Source: Pseudomonas sp. SJZ079
GTDB taxonomy: Bacteria; Pseudomonadota; Gammaproteobacteria; Pseudomonadales; Pseudomonadaceae
DNA: 64,000 bases
Assembly (NCBI RefSeq): GCF_007993865.1
Contig: NZ_VIUH01000008.1
Coordinates: 1 to 64,000 of the forward strand
Direction of reading: 5' to 3'
In this document: piece by piece, positions 4,176 through 59,993 of the stretch
Numbering within the stretch: position 1 is the stretch's first letter
Layout of the letters: the number at the start of each line of letters is the position of its first letter
Made by a program: the position numbers and the translations under genes
Notes under the pieces: model-generated
What the model saw: only the letters and a program-made list of their open reading frames with translations
What the model was told of the DNA's origin: nothing
The model's database searches: none

Positions 4176-5396
4176 CTAGTCACTGGGCAGTGGCGCGGGG
4201 AGTAACAAGGTCGTCGTGAATCCCGGCATGGGCGGGGTCAGCCAACGCCGTGCTCGTCCGCGCCCAAACGCCTGCACCTTGCCGGCGGCCGCCAGCGCCT
4301 CGAGCGCCCGCTGCACGCTGCGCTGGCTGGCGCCCAACGCAAGCGCCAGGGCCGAACTCGACCACGACTCACCGTCGGCGAGGAAGGCGAGCACCGCCGC
4401 ATGCCGCTCTTCGACGGGCCGCGCCAGCACCACCACCGCGCCGGCGCCGAGTGGGGCCAGGGCAAAGCCGCGCTTCGTCGCGGTCACCTCAGCCAGCGTG
4501 CGCAGCACCGCGCGCAGTCGTCCGATTTCGACGCGTAACCGCACCCGATGGGTTTCATCGGCGAACTGGGTGCGAAATGCCTGCAAGATCAGCGTGTGCC
4601 TCGGCACGTCGGCGGGCCAGGCTTCGCCCAGCGCGCGGGCAAGGGCGAACAACACCGGACGCCGGGCGAGTGACACCTGGATGGCCGCGTCGAACACGGC
4701 GTGACGGCAGGCGTCCACCACGAGCGCCCCGGACAGCCGTAGTGCCTCAACCTCTTCGAGCAGCAGGAGTCGCTCTTCGCCCCGCGCGATCAGGCGCGCC
4801 GCGGGCATGTCCAGGACGCGGGAGGCACTGTCGACTTCCGCCGCCAGCGCCGGGATGCCGGCGTCGCGCGCGGCGCGCCCGGCCCGCGCCAGCGCAGCGC
4901 GCGCCGTCTGGGTCTGCAGGCGGCGCATCGCGATCCCCGCGACGACCAGCTCAAAGGCGGCCCTGGAGGCGGGTGGGAGGGGCGCGGGGTCGAGTTCGGC
5001 GAGCCGCTGCTCGGCCTCGTCGAGGCGCCCGAGCAGCAGCAGGCGGCGGACCTCGAGTAACCGCGCATGCGCGGCGTTGACCCGGTCGCCGTGCGCTTCG
5101 AGCGTCGTCCGCGCGGCGTCGAGCGCCTTCGCAGGCCAGCCCAGGTCGCGCGAGACGAACGCGATCTCGGCCTCGGCGACTACACACCTGGCACGGGCCA
5201 CCGCCTCTTTCGTGCCGAAGGCACGCGCCGCACGTCGCACCAGCGCCTTCGCCCGCACAAACTCGCCGAGCTGCGCCATCGCGATGCCCCGCAGCGCGAG
5301 CGCAGGCGCGTCGTCGCGCAAGGCGACCCGGTTCAGTGCGCCGAGGGGGTCACCCGTCGCCAGCGCACGCGCCGCTGCGGTGATCAGCGAGTCCAT
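4176..5396 (-). CDS. TPR-like / C-terminal HTH regulator
   Basis: A 406-aa protein with Ala/Arg/Leu-rich helical repeats over roughly residues 1-200 (for example RLLLLGRLDEAEQRLAELD), resembling TPR repeats. A C-terminal winged-helix segment follows near 340-385 (SSSALALALGASQRSVQRAL). The middle is Arg-rich and could also bind DNA. I infer a transcriptional regulator of the adjoining propeller gene or the divergent DUF899 gene. GC content looks even higher than the neighbours. No named family is recognised with certainty. Confidence 0.6.
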   Translation of the reverse strand: MDSLITAAARALATGDPLGALNRVALRDDAPALALRGIAMAQLGEFVRAKALVRRAARAFGTKEAVARARCVVAEAEIAFVSRDLGWPAKALDAARTTLEAHGDRVNAAHARLLEVRRLLLLGRLDEAEQRLAELDPAPLPPASRAAFELVVAGIAMRRLQTQTARAALARAGRAARDAGIPALAAEVDSASRVLDMPAARLIARGEERLLLLEEVEALRLSGALVVDACRHAVFDAAIQVSLARRPVLFALARALGEAWPADVPRHTLILQAFRTQFADETHRVRLRVEIGRLRAVLRTLAEVTATKRGFALAPLGAGAVVVLARPVEERHAAVLAFLADGESWSSSALALALGASQRSVQRALEALAAAGKVQAFGRGRARRWLTPPMPGFTTTLLLPAPLPSD

Positions 5397-5524
5397 CTGA
5401 ATCCCGCCACAGTTGTCACTCCCACCGTTCGCTGCCCGCTGCCTAGTCTATCTCACGACCAGCAACCAGCCCGGCGTATCGCGAACGCAGCGAACCACGC
5501 CGGGCACTCACCGGGAGAAGAACA

Positions 5525-6301
5525 ATGCCCCAGCACCTGACCGCGACACGTGAACAGTGGTTGGCAACTCGGCTCGAGTTGCTCGAGGCGGAGAAGGAAC
5601 TGACGCGGCGCAGCGACGAGCTGGCGCGGCGCCGCCAGGAACTGCCCTGGGTCCGCGTCGACAAGGCGTACCGATTCGCGACCGATGAGGGTAGCGCCTC
5701 GCTGGCAGACCTGTTCCGAGGGCGCTCGCAGCTCCTCGTCTATCACTTCATGTTCGGCCCCGACTACCAGGCCGGGTGCCCATCCTGCTCGGCGATTGCG
5801 GACGGGTTCGACGGGGTCGCCGTCCACCTGGCGCACCACGACGTCACGCTTGCGGCGGTGTCGCGGGCGCCGCTCGCCAAGCTGCAGGCGTACAAGCGGC
5901 GAATGGGCTGGAGCTTTCCCTGGGCGTCCTCGCTCCGCGGCGACTTCAATTTCGACTTCAGCGTTTCATTCAGCGAGGAGCAACAGCGCGAGACGGGCAT
6001 CGATTACAACTACCGGCGCGAAGCGGCATTCGAGTGGCGCGGCGGGCAGGAGGCTGGCAGCAAGGAGGCGGAGGCCGCGTTCGTGGCGCTGAACGGAGCC
6101 GACCCGGCCACCTACCAACGCGATAGGCCGGGCATGAGCGCGTTCGTACTCGAGGACGGCGTCGTCTACCACAGCTATTCCACCTATGCGCGCGGCCTGG
6201 ACGGCCTCTGGGCCATGTACCAGTGGCTCGACCGCGCCCCCAGAGGACGCAACGAGACGGGCGTCTGGTGGCGCCGTCACGACGAATACGCCAAGCGCTG
6301 A
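5525..6301 (+). CDS. DUF899 thioredoxin-like protein
   Basis: A 258-aa protein. LLVYHFMFGPDYQAGCPSCSAIADGFDG is the hallmark of the DUF899 family, which has a thioredoxin fold with a CPSC pair here. The C-terminal half, GLDGLWAMYQWLDRAPRGRNE, also matches the family. Members are soluble and of unknown chemistry, often near stress regulators. The start at 5525 has GGAGAAG upstream. It is divergent from the TPR/HTH regulator at 5396, which suggests control by that protein. Confidence 0.85.
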   Translation: MPQHLTATREQWLATRLELLEAEKELTRRSDELARRRQELPWVRVDKAYRFATDEGSASLADLFRGRSQLLVYHFMFGPDYQAGCPSCSAIADGFDGVAVHLAHHDVTLAAVSRAPLAKLQAYKRRMGWSFPWASSLRGDFNFDFSVSFSEEQQRETGIDYNYRREAAFEWRGGQEAGSKEAEAAFVALNGADPATYQRDRPGMSAFVLEDGVVYHSYSTYARGLDGLWAMYQWLDRAPRGRNETGVWWRRHDEYAKR

Positions 6302-6496
6302 GCCAGTCAGGGCGGTGCTTGGCACAACCGAAGGACGGCCCCTCGCACAACGCCTGGCTTGCCCGCGAGCGTCCCGGCGAGCCTTGTTTGGCGTGGCGCT
6401 GGTCTTGGGCGCTAGCGCCGCGCCGACGATCGTTTACGCTGCGTCCAGGTCGGCATTGGGTGGCGGCGCTATCTACCAAGTTGGCAGCGCGCTACC

Positions 6497-7075
6497 TCAA
6501 CTTTTGAGTACGCCGGAGGCCTTGGCGGTGTGCGTGGCGATGGCGTCCATCAGGTCGGGCGACAGGCAGTCATAGGGTTCCAGGCCGAGTTCCCTCAGCC
6601 GGGCGCGCACCGCGCCCATCGCCTGTGGATCGGCGCCCGACTCGATGATCGAGGAGACAAAGGCTGCGAATTTCGGCTCGGACCATCCCCTGTCTGCCGA
6701 CAGTTCGGTGTGAATGAAGTCGAGCCCGTAGAGGGGGTGCCCGCTATTTTCGATGCGGCCGTACATATGCACGCCGCACTGGCTGCAGGCGTGCCGCTGG
6801 ATGGTAGCTTTGGGATCAACCACTGCCAGCTTCTCCGCATGCTCGGTGACCTTCAGCTTGTCACGCGGCACCACCGCCACCAGGGAGAACAGCGCGCCCT
6901 TGGGCTTCCAGCACTTGGTGCAGCCGCAGGCATGGTTGTGCGCCGATTGTGAGTCGACCTTCACTCGCACGGGGTCCTTGGCGCAGTGACAGGCGAGGGT
7001 GCCGCCGGTAAAGCTGCTTGAACCCGCCTGGATACCGCCGTCGATCAATGGGTGAAGCGAAAATGTGCGAGTCAT
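6497..7075 (-). CDS. gfa: S-(hydroxymethyl)glutathione synthase (Gfa)
   Basis: A 192-aa protein that matches glutathione-dependent formaldehyde-activating enzyme, which condenses formaldehyde with glutathione at the start of glutathione-linked formaldehyde detoxification. Zinc-binding cysteines are visible in the family spacing: Cys29/Cys31 (CHC), Cys50/Cys52/Cys55 (CGCTKC) and Cys97/Cys100 (CSQC). Length is normal. No formaldehyde dehydrogenase gene is adjacent, so it stands alone here. Confidence 0.9.
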
Positions 7076-7651
7076 TGCCGATCTCCTGAGTAGTCAAAAC
7101 GACGAGTGCACCTGGGTTAAATCTCAACCTGCATTTGATCTTTTTCTGCCGGGTAAAGTTCAGCTCTCGCGTTGCTGGCGCTGGGCAGATCGGGGCGATC
7201 GGCGGCTTGCCGGGTGAGGTGAGCGGGGAGGGGAACAAGAGGTGAGCAGGAGCGGCCCCTTGGCCTTCGCGCCGATTAGCTCAAGCGCAGCGGCAGGCAG
7301 TTGCACTGCGTCAGTCACAAATGTCGCCGCCGCCGAGTCTAAAGAGTTAACAGCCGCCAGACCGGGCGGTTCAGACGAGGACTTTGCTATGCCCGTTTCC
7401 CTTGACCCGCGCGGTGCAGCTGCGCAGACCTGGCCGTGGGGCGTACGGCGCGCTTCGCTGCGGCGAACCTTGCGCTATCAGTGCGCCGCTAATCGCAGAC
7501 TTCCCGGTTCGCCGGGCACGGGGTATACCTTGATGGAGCTGCAGAACCGGATGGCGCACGAGCTGGAGCATGCGACCCCGGGCGTTGATTACCGGACGGA
7601 GCATTTGCAGCGCCTGATGCGCTGGGACAACAGCCGAGGAGTTTGCCGCCT
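7076..7651. other. 576-bp gap before the sigma factor gene, weak ORF only
   Basis: An open frame starts at ATG 7389 and ends at 7655, 88 codons, overlapping the sigma gene by a few bases. Its middle is Arg-rich and low-complexity, and the matching DNA is rich in GCGC-type inverted stretches, so I do not think it is a real gene. The last 40 codons (MELQNRMAHELEHATPGVDY...) look slightly more protein-like. Otherwise the gap should hold the promoters of gfa (leftward) and the sigma gene (rightward), which I could not place. Confidence 0.35.
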
Positions 7652-8485
7652 ATGAGATTGCCCGAGATCGATCATGCCTGGGTGCAGCGCGCTCAGCAGG
7701 GCGAGCTGGCGGCGCTGGATCGCCTGCTGCTGGTGATTCAGCCGGCGGTCTACAACCTGGCCATGCGCATGCTCAATCAGCGCGAGGATGCCCAGGACGC
7801 GACTCAGGAAATCCTCCTGCGCATCACCACCCATCTCGCCAGCTTTCGTGGCGACAGCCGCTTCGCCACCTGGATGTTCCGCATCGCCAGCAATTACCTG
7901 CTCAGCGCGCGCTCGCGGGCCAAGGAGTCGCCGGCGCTGTCGCTGGAGGGCCTGGAGCAGAAGCTCGGCCTCGGAGTGCAGCTGGCCGAACGGGCGCAGG
8001 CGGAGGGCCAAGCGCGCCAGCTTGGCCCCGAGGATAAGTTGAGCGCGCAACGCATGGCGTTGGCCTGTACCCAGGGCATGCTGATGTGCCTGGATCGCGA
8101 GCATCGCGCCGCCTATGTCCTGGACCTGACGTTCGGCCTCGACTCGGCAACGGCGGCCGAAGTGCTGGAGATAAGCCCCGAGGCCTACCGCAAGCGGTTG
8201 TCGCGTGCCCGCCAGCGCCTGGGTGAGTTCATGCAGCGCCAGTGCGGGTTGGTCAACGCCTGCGCCAGCTGCACCTGCGACAAGCAGCTGCTGGCCGTCG
8301 AGCAGGCGCAGCGGCTGGGGTTGGCCAAGCCCCCGAGCCGCGCGCCGGAGGCCGAACTGATCGCCCTCACCGAACTGGGTGACGCCGCTGCGGTGTTCCG
8401 CGCTCACCCCGACTACCGGGTGCCGCAGCGGGTCATCGAGACCGTGCGCGCGGTGCTCAAATTGCACACTGGAGGTTGGCAATGA
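7652..8485 (+). CDS. ECF-type RNA polymerase sigma factor with Cys-rich C-terminus
   Basis: About 277 aa. Region 2 is visible as AMRMLNQREDAQDATQEILLRI...FATWMFRIASNYL and region 4 as LDSATAAEVLEISPEAYRKRLSRARQRL. It is longer than a typical 180-aa ECF factor because of a large linker and a C-terminal tail with CASCTC near residue 205, which may bind metal or sense redox state. ATG 7652 is preferred, with GAGGAG 10 bases upstream. Its stop overlaps the next start codon (ATGA at 8482), implying coupled translation. No anti-sigma gene is seen. Confidence 0.8.
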   Translation: MRLPEIDHAWVQRAQQGELAALDRLLLVIQPAVYNLAMRMLNQREDAQDATQEILLRITTHLASFRGDSRFATWMFRIASNYLLSARSRAKESPALSLEGLEQKLGLGVQLAERAQAEGQARQLGPEDKLSAQRMALACTQGMLMCLDREHRAAYVLDLTFGLDSATAAEVLEISPEAYRKRLSRARQRLGEFMQRQCGLVNACASCTCDKQLLAVEQAQRLGLAKPPSRAPEAELIALTELGDAAAVFRAHPDYRVPQRVIETVRAVLKLHTGGWQ

Positions 8486-8665
8486 GTGGTGGTCGAGTGA
8501 TCGCCTTGACCACCGCCGACCGCTTCAGTTTGGCGGCCTATGGCAATGCGCCGAGTCGTGTGGATCGGCCACAGCGGTTTCTTTCGTCGCCAGTTCGCCG
8601 ACAGCCTGTGGCCGCACGCCCTGGCCATCCTGGACAACATGAGCAGCAAGAGGCAGCCCACATGA
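8482..8665 (+). pseudogene. Small gene between sigma factor and thioesterase, frameshifted
   Basis: ATG 8482 overlaps the sigma stop and has GGAGG 6 bases upstream. It begins MSGGRVIALTTADRFSLAAYGNA. From about 8546 the plausible protein continues in the next frame (RRVVWIGHSGFFRRQFADSL... ending SSKRQPT) and stops at 8663-8665, overlapping the thioesterase ATG. The span is 184 bases, one more than a multiple of three, so a single-base insertion fits. Without the shift the product would be about 60 aa. A sequencing error is possible. As written, the first frame runs on into the thioesterase. Confidence 0.5.
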
Positions 8666-9078
8666 CCGATATCACTATCCCCGAAGGCTTTATCCCGCTG
8701 CCCCGCAGCAGCCCGCTACTCGACCTGCTCGGCCCGGTCTATTGCCGGGGCAGCGGCTTGCAACTGGAGATCGGCCTGCGTGCCGAACCCCGCCACGCCA
8801 ATGGTCGTGGCACCTTGCACGGTGGCGTGCTGGCGACCCTGGCGGATGTCGGCATGGGCTACGCCATGGCCTTTTCCAGCGAGCCGCCGCTGCCGCTGGT
8901 GACGGCCAGCATGACCCTGGACTATCTCGGCACGGTGCAGGTCGGCGAGTGGGTCGTGGTCCATCTGGAGCACTCCAAGCGCGGTCGGCAAATGGCCTTT
9001 GCCACGGCCAGTCTACGGGTGGGCGAGCGGGCGGTGGCGCGTGCCAGTGCGGTTTTTTCCGTACCGCTGGAAGCTTGA
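8662..9078 (+). CDS. PaaI-family hotdog thioesterase
   Basis: About 138 aa from ATG 8662. The hotdog signature HANGRGTLHGGVLATLADVGMGYA sits near residues 46-69, with the HGG-D catalytic pattern of PaaI/YdiI-like acyl-CoA thioesterases. The start is coupled to the preceding small frame through an ATGA overlap and has AAGAGG upstream. An extended read from 8482 gives a fusion protein that I think is an artefact of the upstream frameshift. The acyl-CoA substrate is unknown. Confidence 0.82.
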   Translation: MTDITIPEGFIPLPRSSPLLDLLGPVYCRGSGLQLEIGLRAEPRHANGRGTLHGGVLATLADVGMGYAMAFSSEPPLPLVTASMTLDYLGTVQVGEWVVVHLEHSKRGRQMAFATASLRVGERAVARASAVFSVPLEA

Positions 9079-9230
9079 ATAGATGGGCTTGGCGCCTGGG
9101 CGGCGGCGCTGGGTTTTGCGCTGCTGATGCTCCGCTGCGGGCCAAGGCTGGTTAAAATCCAGGAGGCCGGAATGATGAGTGCATCACCCCGGCTTCTTTG
9201 GCTAGCAACCGCAAAAGGGAGGAGGGCGCA

Positions 9231-9422
9231 ATGAGCGCACAGGACCAATCGGAACCGGCCACCGATGCTGAGGTATTCGCCTATATGCAGCGTCAGTTGA
9301 GGTCCGGGCGGGTCAAGCCGGCCGTGCTGGTGGACCTGACGCAGAAGGCCTTTCCGGAGGTCTCGCGTGAGCGGATCGTCCACTGCTTCGGCGAGCTGGA
9401 CTCGTCGTTGCTCAAACGATGA
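9231..9422 (+). CDS. Small conserved-looking hypothetical protein
   Basis: A 63-aa acidic, helical protein (MSAQDQSEPATDAEVFAYMQRQL...). The ATG at 9231 follows an excellent GGAGGAGGG ribosome site, so I trust this start over upstream frames. It has no membrane segment or Cys motif. It converges with the pirin gene, whose stop lies 18 bp away. I do not recognise the family. Confidence 0.65.
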   Translation: MSAQDQSEPATDAEVFAYMQRQLRSGRVKPAVLVDLTQKAFPEVSRERIVHCFGELDSSLLKR

Positions 9423-9440
9423 ACGTCCGCTGGCCCTGCG

Positions 9441-10355
9441 CTATTCGGGCAGGGGGATGAACTCGTCCTCGTCGCCTGGCACCTTGGGGAAACGGCCGGC
9501 CTGCCAGTCCTGCTTGGCTTGCTCGATGCGTTCCTTGCGGCTGGACACGAAGTTCCACTCGATATAGCGGCGGCCCATTTTTTCGCCGCCGATAATCGCA
9601 ATCCGCGACTCCTCCACTGCTTCCAGAATGATCCCCGGCTCCTGGGCGAAGACCGCCATCGAATGCTCGGGAATCAGCGTGTCGCGCGCCTTCAGCGAAC
9701 CTTGGGCGACATACACCGCGCGTTCTTCCTCATCCGGCAAGATCAGCGTCTGCCCCGCCTGCATATGCGCTTCCACGTACAGCGTCTCGGCAAACTCCTT
9801 GACCGGCGAGGTAACGCCATAGGCCGCGCCGATCAGCACCCGCAGCGGAACCCCGGCGACCGTGACGGCGGGCAGGTCGGCCGCCGGGTAGTGATAGAAC
9901 GCCGCCTGCATTTCCTCGTCGGTTTCCGGCAGAGCCAGCCACAGTTGCAGGCCGTGCAGCCGGTGCGCCACGTCGCGTACTTCCGGGCGCTCGCGTTCCG
10001 AGTGGACGATGCCGCTGCCGGCGACCATCAGGTTGAGGTCGCCGGGGCGAATCGCCTGCAGGCTGCCCAACGAGTCGCGGTGCAGAATTTCGCCTTCGAA
10101 CAGGTAGGTCACGGTGGCGATATTCACGTGCGGGTGCGGGCGGACATTGATGCCCTGGCCGGGCGCAAATTCCGCCGGACCCATGTGATCGAAGAAGGCC
10201 CAGGGACCGACCATCTTGCGGCCGATAGTGGGCAGCGTGCGGCGTACCGAAAAGCCGCCGAGGTCCTTGTCCCGTGGCCGAATGATCAGCTCCACGGCGT
10301 CACAGCCCTGGGCGATGTCACATTCCTGTTCCGGGTTTTTCGTCAGGTTGCTCAT
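9441..10355 (-). CDS. Pirin family protein
   Basis: About 304 aa with the bicupin pirin pattern. The N-terminal cupin metal site is visible as NVRPHPHVNIATVTYLFEGEILHRDS, and IVHSERERPE gives the last ligands; MVGPWAFFDHMGPAEF is also typical. Pirins bind Fe or Ni and some act as quercetinases, but the role here is not assigned. ATG 10355 has AAGAGGAA upstream and is chosen over an upstream in-frame extension. Confidence 0.88.
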   Translation of the reverse strand: MSNLTKNPEQECDIAQGCDAVELIIRPRDKDLGGFSVRRTLPTIGRKMVGPWAFFDHMGPAEFAPGQGINVRPHPHVNIATVTYLFEGEILHRDSLGSLQAIRPGDLNLMVAGSGIVHSERERPEVRDVAHRLHGLQLWLALPETDEEMQAAFYHYPAADLPAVTVAGVPLRVLIGAAYGVTSPVKEFAETLYVEAHMQAGQTLILPDEEERAVYVAQGSLKARDTLIPEHSMAVFAQEPGIILEAVEESRIAIIGGEKMGRRYIEWNFVSSRKERIEQAKQDWQAGRFPKVPGDEDEFIPLPE

Positions 10356-40602: not shown

Positions 40603-40694
40603 GTGCAGCAAGGCCCGCGCGATGTTCCGCTCCTCGGCTGCGTCGCACGGCCTACGACAATCGGTTGCACATGGCCTGTTGACGATGTGTACAT

Positions 40695-40721
40695 ATAAGT
40701 CCAGTATGGACTTTAAAGTAT
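40695..40721 (+). promoter_or_regulatory. Candidate DauR operator, site A
   Basis: A perfect 7-3-7 inverted repeat AAGTCCA-GTA-TGGACTT (40697-40713) followed by TAAAGTAT. Over 27 bases it matches the site before dauB (59967-59993) at 21 positions, with the block TATGGACTTT then AAGTAT shared. It lies 174 bp before the binding-protein gene. Confidence 0.6.
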
Positions 40722-40779
40722 AAGTCGAGACCGGCAAATGACCTGTCCTCATGCGTTACCCCGCGACAACTTTTCGCTC

Positions 40780-40800
40780 AGGCGCAGACCTGATGCGCCT
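40780..40800 (+). terminator. Hairpin in the binding-protein leader
   Basis: A 7-bp stem AGGCGCA / TGCGCCT with a 7-base loop, followed by TTCTTCT. It stands between the proposed operator and the start at 40896, so it may be a weak attenuator, or a leftover terminator of the moa operon. Confidence 0.4.
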
Positions 40801-40895
40801 TTCTTCTGTCTTGCAGTAACCCCCAGTACCTTGTTCGTCCGCGGCGTCTTGCCGGGGGCGTGGGGTACGTCACTCACTCAGCAGGAATCATCACA

Positions 40896-41672
40896 ATGAA
40901 GAAACTCGCCATATTGGGCGGCCTTGCCCTGAGCTTGATTGCCGCCAATCTGTTTGCCGCCGAAAGGCCGCTGCGTCTGGGTATCGAGGCGGCCTATCCG
41001 CCCTTCGCGTTCAAGACCGCCGACGGTCAGATCGACGGCTTCGACCACGACATCGGTATCGCCCTGTGCGCCGAGATGAAGGTCGAGTGCACCTGGGTCG
41101 AGCAGGAGTTCGACGGCCTGATCCCCTCGCTGAAAGTGAAGAAGGTCGACGCCATCCTGTCGTCCATGACCATCACCGCCGAGCGCCGCAATTCGGTCGA
41201 CTTCACCAACAAGTATTACTACAGCCCGGCGCGTCTGGTGATGAAGGCCGGCAGCGAGGTCGATGCCGACTTCAGTAACCTCAAGGGCAAGCGCATCGGC
41301 GTTCAGCGCTCGAGCACCACCGACCGTTTCGCCAGCGCGGTACTGGCGGCCAAGGGCGTGGAAGTGGTGCGCTACAGCTCGCAGAACGAAATCTACCTGG
41401 ACCTGATTTCCGGCCGCCTGGATGGCACCCTGGCCGATGCCATCCCGGTGAATGAGGGCTTCCTGAAAACCGATAACGGCAAGGGCTTCGCCTTCGTCGG
41501 CCCGTCCTTCACCGATCCCAAGTACTTCGGTGAAGGCGCCGGCATCGCCGTGCGCAAGGGCGACAGCGAGCTGCTGGGCAAGTTTAATGCGGCGATCAAG
41601 GCGATCCGTGACAACGGTGAGTACCAGAAGATTCAGGCCAAATACTTCGACTTCGATATCTACGGCGACTGA
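40896..41672 (+). CDS. Basic amino acid ABC transporter substrate-binding protein
   Basis: A 258-aa periplasmic protein of the HisJ/ArgT family with a signal peptide ending NLFAA. RLGIEAAYPPFAFKTADGQIDGFDHDIGIALCAEM is the ligand cleft. No permease or ATPase genes are adjacent, so it must share membrane components encoded elsewhere. The operator-like site upstream resembles that of dauB, and as I recall P. aeruginosa has such a gene (PA3865) next to dauBAR, so D-arginine/lysine uptake is likely. Confidence 0.88.
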   Translation: MKKLAILGGLALSLIAANLFAAERPLRLGIEAAYPPFAFKTADGQIDGFDHDIGIALCAEMKVECTWVEQEFDGLIPSLKVKKVDAILSSMTITAERRNSVDFTNKYYYSPARLVMKAGSEVDADFSNLKGKRIGVQRSSTTDRFASAVLAAKGVEVVRYSSQNEIYLDLISGRLDGTLADAIPVNEGFLKTDNGKGFAFVGPSFTDPKYFGEGAGIAVRKGDSELLGKFNAAIKAIRDNGEYQKIQAKYFDFDIYGD

Positions 41673-44378: not shown

Positions 44379-44444
44379 GCGCCTTTTGCCATGCAATTGG
44401 TTCGCCGTAGCACTGACCGCATGCGCTTCCCGCCTCCGCCCCGC

Positions 44445-44610
44445 GCTCAACCCTCGCCCTGATCTGTTTGAGGTGCTTGTGCACCGTCGGCCGACCCATG
44501 TTCAGCACGTTGGCCACATGGTTGGCGGCGTTCTTGCCCTTGAATGCGTCTTCGGCGTGCAGCGCTGCGCCCCGTTCGAGCTTGTGCTCGCGGGTCAGCA
44601 CATGGAGGCC
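44445..44610 (-). pseudogene. Decayed 3' fragment of a dauR-like gene
   Basis: The DNA aligns closely with the 3' end of dauR (57099-57266), with scattered substitutions and one deleted base near the end, and similarity stops abruptly at about 44610. The readable peptide is LTREHKLERGAALHAEDAFKGKNAANHVANVLNMGRPTVHKHLKQI, the DauR helix-turn-helix. There is no N-terminal half, so it cannot function. Confidence 0.85.
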
Positions 44611-44658
44611 AGTCAGGCCGCAGTTGCCGAGCTGCGGACAGCTTGCAGATAAGCTTCA

Positions 44659-47074: not shown

Positions 47075-47282
47075 AGCTAGACTCCTATAGGTGCAAGTCC
47101 ATAGCCAGGGTCGCTTTCTGCCGCTCGTCACCGGCGGTTGTGGGGAGCGAGCCGTCAGTCACGAACGGCAGGAGCCAACCCGAAGCGGCCGGCGCCCGCT
47201 GGCAGGGATCGGCCAGATGCATAGGCCTGGGAAACCTAGGGTAGCGGGGCTAGTCCACCGCGCCCCGAGCGATCGAGGCTCA
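47075..47282. other. Possible structured-RNA or group II intron remnant
   Basis: Within the 783-bp gap 47007-47789, this stretch contains AGGTGCAAGTCC and long internal complementarity: CTGCCGCTCGTCAC with GTCACGAACGGCAG, and a GGCCGGCGCC core. The pattern recalls domain I of group II introns, but there is no reverse transcriptase and no clear 5' GUGYG boundary. The MITE copy at 47290 directly follows. From 47557 to 47789 nothing is recognised. Confidence 0.25.
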
Positions 47283-56388: not shown

Positions 56389-57100
56389 GGCGGCTGTTCT
56401 CCTCGTTGCGTGGTTGTTGAAAACTCATCAATAGAGGTTGCGCACATCCATAGCTCACCGCCGCTCAACACCCTTGCGGGTATAAGCGCAGAAGCCTGAA
56501 TGAAAGCTAACTAGGTGAATGCCACCTGCTGAGCGCAGCTGAATGGCTGGCGCTTACTCAGTGGTCAAGGAGGGGCGGTTACGCCTGCGATGACCGCGCC
56601 AGGGGGTGGCGCTGCTGGTCATGGGAATGGAGGGCCATGCAGGAGCGGCCAGGCATGCTCGTGCGGGGGAAACACAAGTCCCGTGCGGCGGAGTGTTGAA
56701 TTGTCCACATTAAGGCTCCCGGCGCTTGAAGCTACCCCCTGAGCCGCATGAGTCGCCTACTGTCGAATACACGATAACCGGACTTCACTCCTATGTTGTT
56801 ATCGGACTAAAGTCTGGCTGGATACTTAAGGGTTAAGTATCTTTTACAGCCGTTGTCAATGTGCCATCAGTACTATTTTGAAGTCCGTCCTGAATGTCGC
56901 TATCGTCGGCAAATTCCAGGGAAATCAGGCGTAGCCAGGAGCAAAAATACATCTAACGGAAACAAAGATTTTGCGCAGCGGCGTCTGCGAAAGGGCGGGC
57001 GGATTTATTTTTCCGTTCTAAGCGTCTGTAACTGGCCGCTTGTTGCCTGTCGTCAAGGTTCCTTCAGGTTCGCTTCCTGTTATCTATCCGCGTGCAGCGC
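56389..57100. other. 712-bp non-coding gap between oxidase and dauR
   Basis: No gene is supported. It contains a perfect palindrome at 56821-56841 (arms GATACTTAA and TTAAGTATC around GGG), just after a smaller inverted repeat GACT-AA-AGTC. The arm TTAAGTAT also occurs in the candidate DauR operator before dauB. The multicopper oxidase promoter should lie near 56400-56500. Confidence 0.5.
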
Positions 57101-57733
57101 TCAACCCTCGCCTTTGATCTCTTTCAGGTGCTTGTACACCGTCGCTCGGCCCATGTTCAGCACGTTGGCTACATAGTTGGCGGCGCTCTTGCCCTTGAAC
57201 GCGCCTTCGGCGTGCAGCGCTTCGACCAGTTCGCGCTTGTGCTCGCGGGTCAGCACATTGAGGCCGAGCTGGCGTTGGCGCAGCCAGTTGTGCAGGAAGG
57301 TGTTGATGCGTTCCTGCCAGTCGTCGCGAAACAGGGCGTCCGGCTGCGGGATCAGTTTGCTCGGCGAGAGGAACAGTTCCAGCGCCTGCTTGGCGCTCTC
57401 GAACAGCGAGATATTCAGGTTGATGCACAGCACGGCGATCGGCACGCCCTGGGCGTCGCGCACCACGCTGCTGACCGAGCGAATCTTCTGACCGTCCCAG
57501 TTGAGTTTCTCGTAGGGGCCGATAGTGCGTTCGTCGACGTCGCCGCTGAGCAGGTCTTCCAGGGCCGCCTCGTCGCCGATCTCGCGCTTGGAAATGTTGT
57601 TGGCGATGTAGTCGATCTTCTGCGTGCGCAGGTCGTGCAGCACCACTTCGGCGTGGGGGAAGAACAGTGTGGCGATGGCGTCGGCGACGGCCCGGTAATT
57701 ATCCAGGGCGGGGGCGGGATGGGGCGGCGTCAT
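57101..57733 (-). CDS. dauR: Transcriptional regulator DauR (YheO-like PAS + HTH)
   Basis: A 210-aa protein with an N-terminal YheO-type PAS domain (TLFFPHAEVVLHDLRTQKIDYIANN) and a C-terminal HTH_22-type helix-turn-helix (FKGKSAANYVANVLNMGRATVYKHLKEIKGEG). Third gene of the dauB-dauA-dauR operon. In P. aeruginosa DauR represses this operon and responds to arginine. A decayed copy of its 3' end is at 44445. Confidence 0.88.
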   Translation of the reverse strand: MTPPHPAPALDNYRAVADAIATLFFPHAEVVLHDLRTQKIDYIANNISKREIGDEAALEDLLSGDVDERTIGPYEKLNWDGQKIRSVSSVVRDAQGVPIAVLCINLNISLFESAKQALELFLSPSKLIPQPDALFRDDWQERINTFLHNWLRQRQLGLNVLTREHKRELVEALHAEGAFKGKSAANYVANVLNMGRATVYKHLKEIKGEG

Positions 57734-57841
57734 GGCGGAAAGCTCGTTGAGGGTGATCCCCGGGGGTATTCGGGTGGCGCGGTGAGTGTGCCGCAAAGCC
57801 GCCGAAGCGTCACCTGTACGACGCCTCGACGGCCCTGGCAC

Positions 57842-59939
<2,098 letters not shown>

Positions 59940-59966
59940 GGGGACGCTCCGACTGAATGTGAACTT

Positions 59967-59993
59967 AATAATCTATTATGGACTTTTAAGTAT
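59967..59993 (-). promoter_or_regulatory. Candidate DauR operator, site B (dauB promoter)
   Basis: On the plus strand the site contains TATGGACTTT and AAGTAT, shared with site A at 40695. It lies 28-54 bp before the dauB start, where a repressor would block the promoter. Confidence 0.6.

Follow-up and report, generated by a model that had tools for sequence, protein, structure and literature searches.

Two promoters in the window, a 64,000-nucleotide stretch of the Pseudomonas sp. SJZ079 genome (contig NZ_VIUH01000008.1), carry the same operator of about 31 bp across the likely -10 region. One is the promoter of dauB and the other that of a gene for a basic amino acid binding protein. This palindromic site, common to the dauBAR and binding-protein promoters, is very probably the operator read by DauR, and comparison across related genomes strongly supports a predicted two-promoter DauR regulon made up of dauBAR and the binding-protein gene. 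The features concerned are as follows.

40679-40684, + strand: likely -35 of the binding-protein promoter, TTGACG, 17 bp before the likely -10
40690-40720, + strand: operator of the binding-protein promoter, TACATATAAGTCCAGTATGGACTTTAAAGTA, with a perfect 7-3-7 core at 40697-40713 (matrix and sequence model)
40702-40707, + strand: likely -10 of the binding-protein promoter, CAGTAT, on the operator dyad axis
40896-41672, + strand: solute-binding protein, family 3, lysine/arginine/ornithine type, 258 aa (PF00497, 1.8e-40; PDB 5owf, 6.5e-72)
44443-44611, - strand: decayed copy of the dauR 3' end, 169 bp, 89% identical to 57096-57265
57101-57733, - strand: dauR, YheO-like regulator with PAS_6 and HTH_22 domains (domain search)
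57842-58966, - strand: dauA, FAD-dependent D-arginine dehydrogenase (PF01266; PDB 3nyc, DauA, 7.2e-184)
58977-59939, - strand: dauB, ornithine cyclodeaminase/mu-crystallin family (PF02423, 3.6e-34; synteny in relatives)
59962-59992, - strand: operator of the dauB promoter, TACTTAAAAGTCCATAATAGATTATTAAGTT (matrix and sequence model)
59975-59980, - strand: likely -10 of the dauB promoter, CATAAT, on the operator dyad axis

The genes dauR, dauA and dauB are adjacent on one strand (57101-59939), with the gene order and domains of dauBAR in Pseudomonas aeruginosa (PA3862-PA3864). The orthology of DauA is indicated by its match to the solved enzyme (PDB 3nyc/6p9d, E about 1e-183). The dauB product, for which no NCBIfam model scored above its cut-off, is likely an L-arginine dehydrogenase; DauB is described, in the portion of the literature concerned, as converting 2-ketoarginine to L-arginine. 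An HTH_22 search of the genome found dauR as the only intact gene, the other match being the dauR remnant, and a sequence search found no solved structural relative of DauR (HTH_22). In P. aeruginosa, the work of Li and Lu in 2009 and of Li, Yao and Lu in 2010 reportedly includes the repressor role of DauR and gel-shift experiments.

On the + strand, 40695-40721 (ATAAGTCCAGTATGGACTTTAAAGTAT) and 59967-59993 are identical at 21 of 27 bases. This recount returned the figure given in the sequence-only reading from which the analysis started, and the perfect 7-3-7 palindrome claimed there was located at 40697-40713 (AAGTCCA-GTA-TGGACTT). The match between the two sites thus stands, but the earlier alignment set them in opposite orientations relative to transcription; aligned in the direction of transcription, 40690-40720 (+) and 59962-59992 (-) share 22 of 31 bases. 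Both relative orientations work because the site is near-palindromic, with 11 of 15 dyad pairs in each of the two 31-bp window sites. In the 5.02-Mb genome there are exactly two perfect matches to the 17-mer TATGGACTTTNAAGTAT and one further match, with 2 mismatches, on contig C4, which is missing from the operator model's results. A weight matrix built from 46 sites of other genomes, the window excluded, scored the two window operators at 52.9 and 47.4, and the other scores above 2 in the window were all reverse readings of these same two operators. A third match in the window, at 47094 with one mismatch, was rejected, the matrix giving it no support.

Conservation of the motif upstream of dauB and of orthologous binding-protein genes, which the regulon proposal predicts, was found at nearly all promoters compared. 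Counting the window, the operator pattern, written after the promoters had been inspected and fixing most of the invariant core (TCCA, T18, GA), matches the binding-protein promoter in 28 of 29 cases and the dauB promoter in 20 of 22, and the three misses (L046; dauB of L042 and L043) are, by eye, one-mismatch versions. Two further positions of the 31-bp operator, A2 and T30, show no variation across 42 sites although the pattern leaves them unfixed, and they lie outside the promoter hexamers. These 42 of the 48 sites found form the model alignment; the sites left out as near-duplicates are the binding-protein sites of L036, L038, L039 and L050 and the dauB sites of L036 and L046, and the three one-mismatch sites are absent from the matrix. 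The operator is kept where the binding-protein gene and dauR are on different contigs (L037, L041, L050 and L051). Among 52 promoters of paralogous binding proteins (500 bp each), 51 were without the operator, with a best matrix score of at most -4.8; the exception, L095, scored 27.1, and its genome has DauR.

For genome-wide searches, we used a sequence-only operator model built from the 42 sites, two of which are the window's own and some of whose source genomes recur in the genus sample of 149 genomes (own genome included). The window sites scored E 6.5e-7 and 1.2e-5, and no third strong operator was found in the 5.02-Mb genome, the next distinct place having E 1.31 (150 of 536 first-look candidates scored). 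In the genus search, whose stricter filters may miss weak sites, 74 of 149 genomes were matched at E <= 0.01. DauR was matched at E <= 0.001 in 104 of 149 genomes, with 75 at 77% identity or more followed by a gap down to 68%. The operator was present in 74 of the 75 genomes with such a close DauR and in 0 of the 74 others, so that 74 genomes have neither and 1 has DauR alone; the group without a close DauR includes 29 genomes that have weaker relatives, with identities of 57-68% in 11. The corresponding Fisher value of 1.6e-42 is overstated because the genomes are related and the 77% line was set after the list was seen. In the single miss, G123, the 5' end of dauB lies beyond the contig, and the model gives only a partial match, with E 0.378. 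A set of 27 chosen genomes gave the same picture at E <= 0.01: the operator was found in 19 of 20 with a close DauR, G123 being the miss, and in 0 of 7 without.

Judged by eye, the model matches lie within about 6 kb of DauR except in the window's own genome and eight others (G046, G135, G067, G107, G058, G038, G129 and G060), where the distant site is upstream of the binding-protein gene; in G046, assembled as one contig, it is 2.4 Mb from DauR. Relatives usually have one or two operator places, eight genomes showing a single row at this threshold. In G160, whose contig coordinates are those of G107, the model also gives a weaker third site (E 0.078), at the binding protein of L095/L232. This operator-like site (L095 9929-9959, L232 2046-2076) belongs to a 65%-identical binding-protein paralogue, in a genome with DauR, and the paralogue is a possible third member of the regulon. 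Two simpler genus searches were set aside. The 17-mer with up to 2 mismatches was uninformative: it hit 52 of 149 genomes, and the controls with reversed patterns looked similar. A looser 29-bp pattern with up to 1 mismatch hit at least 117 of 149 genomes, with many unrelated one-mismatch matches, and was superseded by the model search; the no-mismatch matches listed for this pattern include one, in G100 at 2763736, that lies well away from DauR and seems to be a chance match.

Promoter conservation and the co-occurrence of 74 of 75 against 0 of 74 support the D-arginine/basic amino acid regulon under DauR that had been predicted from the window, with the proviso that co-occurrence cannot fully separate a site read by DauR from one that travels with the dau genes. 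Because operator and dau genes travel together, the co-occurrence by itself leaves the reader unnamed, and another regulator of arginine genes, for example ArgR, might read the palindrome at both promoters while DauR reads something else. The genome does have an AraC-type, argR-like gene, in its aot-like operon. We nevertheless consider such a reader very unlikely, given that the 74 genomes lacking a close DauR are all without the operator (E <= 0.01) and that DauR-like proteins beside other gene sets have variants of the core in several loci. The ArgR box is TGTCGC-N8-AA, and an informal comparison shows no such box in the operator. Still less probable, indeed close to negligible, is that the likeness comes from a sigma-70 promoter common to both genes or from recent duplication of a promoter, with no operator involved. 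Promoter-like hexamers do coincide with the motif at both promoters. Against this reading, both sites have dyad symmetry at 11 of 15 pairs, and A2 and T30, which lie outside the hexamers, do not vary in 42 sites; the flanking sequence differs between the two promoters by eye, and the operator is kept at both in many species.

The case for DauR as the reader draws on its relatives as well. We compared 12 loci with DauR-like regulators (57-68% identical), several of which have variant TCYANNRTRGA sites nearby. In 9 of the 12, no more than 3 of 50 control blocks equalled the best matrix match; L095, having a site itself, was excluded from the controls, and one block, L086, had a matrix score of 10.9. 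Five of the nine sites are within 110 bp of the ends of the regulator gene's match, and the variant site of L215 is 20 bp upstream of the first cluster gene. The match at L224 is unlike the operator core, and at L219, L221 and L223 (3 of 12) the matrix search gave nothing beyond controls. The MGRAT.YK residues of the HTH are invariant in the 29 aligned regulators. The L215 cluster (5184-10231) comprises AstE-like, binding-protein, OCD-like and aminotransferase genes together with the DauR-like regulator and is headed by the variant operator at 10201-10231.

The reading we favour is that DauR represses both promoters. In the work of Li and Lu, DauR reportedly represses dauBAR and responds to D-Arg/D-Lys or 2-ketoarginine. 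Since the operator is centred on the likely -10 at both promoters, bound DauR would block RNA polymerase at either. When D-arginine/D-lysine, or 2-ketoarginine made by DauA from D-arginine, accumulates, DauR would be released, so that the racemizing enzymes and the substrate binding protein would be made together. What the sequences show directly is a conserved operator shared by two promoters, where it lies relative to promoter-like hexamers, the synteny and the co-occurrence with DauR; DauR binding, the sign of repression, the inducer at the second promoter and the permease partner are what we infer.

The -35 elements differ between the two promoters. In 27 of 28 binding-protein promoters, the best match to a TTGACA-like -35 falls at one offset, 17 bp from the presumed -10; three bases of that -10 (C, A and the last T) are set by the search pattern, and the constant distance is the informative part. 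Of 20 dauB promoters, 8 have their best -35 match at the binding-protein offset and 7 have it one base away, and the dauB boxes are weak and variable in position. The window dauB -35 is among the weakest: the promoter is without a good -35, the best guess by eye being CTGCAA, 3 of 6. Given the better -35 at the binding-protein promoter, the two promoters could differ, with DauR reading both sites and activating, or also activating, the binding-protein gene. This is unlikely in our estimation, as the operator covers the likely -10 at both promoters, which fits a repressor.

The sequence-only reading had also placed the binding-protein gene 19 kb from dauBAR. That separation proved secondary: in the 22 relatives with dauR on the same locus, dauR and the binding-protein gene converge and are 33 bp to 6.4 kb apart, counting to the ends of the BLAST matches, against 15.4 kb in the window. 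The promoters of L035 and L036 are identical, and these two loci could represent a single species. Among related loci (80 kept of 578 confirmed), the binding-protein gene is beside moaE and/or dauBAR in 28 and not in 52. The gap in the window contains the dauR remnant, in which the recognition region is altered; all nine relatives compared are closer to the intact dauR than to the remnant. The remnant marks a past rearrangement between the binding-protein gene and dauR. At the same junction, blastn finds no match in the window for about 13 kb of DNA in the close relative G060. With the remnant and this G060 DNA, the junction looks like a place of DNA gain. The binding-protein gene and the dau genes were ancestrally adjacent and convergent, and later insertions between the binding-protein gene and dauR drove them apart here.

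The product of the binding-protein gene scores 279.6 bits with TIGR01096, above the curated cut-off of 256.35. Its earlier description as solitary is right insofar as no permease gene adjoins: no permease or ATPase genes are beside it, the neighbours being moaE and a methyltransferase gene. It shares the basic amino acid binding fold, with R77 and D161, with LAO/HisJ-type proteins and AotJ, and differs from them in having no adjacent permease and instead a predicted DauR operator. The dau-linked binding proteins keep the LAO-type R77 and D161. At LAO position 122 (pocket positions being those we take from work on LAO), 34 of 35 dau-linked proteins have Thr, whereas 51 of 55 others have His or Tyr and LAO has Gln, which hints at a different ligand. 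Another contig encodes a binding protein of 66% identity, followed by two permease genes, a 370-aa gene and genes for an ABC ATPase and an AraC-type regulator, a set that we regard as an aotJQMOP-argR-like operon and a plausible permease donor. The solitary protein probably docks on the permease of another system, most likely AotQMP. More tentatively, and with doubt prevailing, it could be a dedicated D-arginine/D-lysine receptor that gives AotQMP D-specificity, with the TCYANNRTRGA code of the DauR family spread to other operons, such as that of L215.

The binding-protein gene as a new regulon member is well supported, and it extends a known system without constituting a new kind. The window differs from P. 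aeruginosa in the 15.4 kb that separate dauBAR from the binding-protein gene and in the second operator assigned here. In P. aeruginosa, PA3865 has the next locus number to dauR; by its position it is the putative orthologue of the window binding protein. Our literature searches found no paper on the DauR operator or on the co-regulation, and we do not claim that these are unpublished. In the table concerned, DauR is given as the dauBAR operon regulator (PMC7789669). The relevant part of one source lists PA3865 as an arginine/ornithine binding protein among mutants, and in the portion of Table 2 covered there is no entry for it between PA3761 and PA4910 (PMC2542419); a passage of another calls it a probable amino acid binding protein (PMC8959810), and in a passage of a third the label PA3865 is used for a tRNase pyocin (PMC9369656). 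The present analysis provides an explicit predicted DNA site for DauR, an HTH_22 regulator, and names a candidate D-amino-acid binding protein. The predicted two-promoter regulon would tie D-arginine catabolism to an uptake receptor, and its shared operator outlives the break-up of the gene cluster.

The leader of the binding-protein gene has features of its own. A 53-codon ORF (40738-40899, +) ends with a stop that overlaps the binding-protein start codon (ATGA). Counting the window, 17 of 20 long leaders have a first ATG whose frame ends at that start; the overlapping TGA is supplied for free by ATGA. A coding-selection test of this ORF found no third-position excess in three clades, and its amino-acid conservation was rejected on that account. 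An Rfam search at gathering thresholds gave no match in the window. A leader element, TTTCTTCTGTCTTGC (40800-40814, +), is unique in the genome at up to 1 mismatch and recognisable in 22 of 28 leaders by two hand-written patterns, at varying distance; it is perhaps an RNA element. In the leaders of L075, L078 and L093, a CAACAACAA stretch directly before the binding-protein start resembles the Crc/Hfq target, which we take to be AANAANAA.
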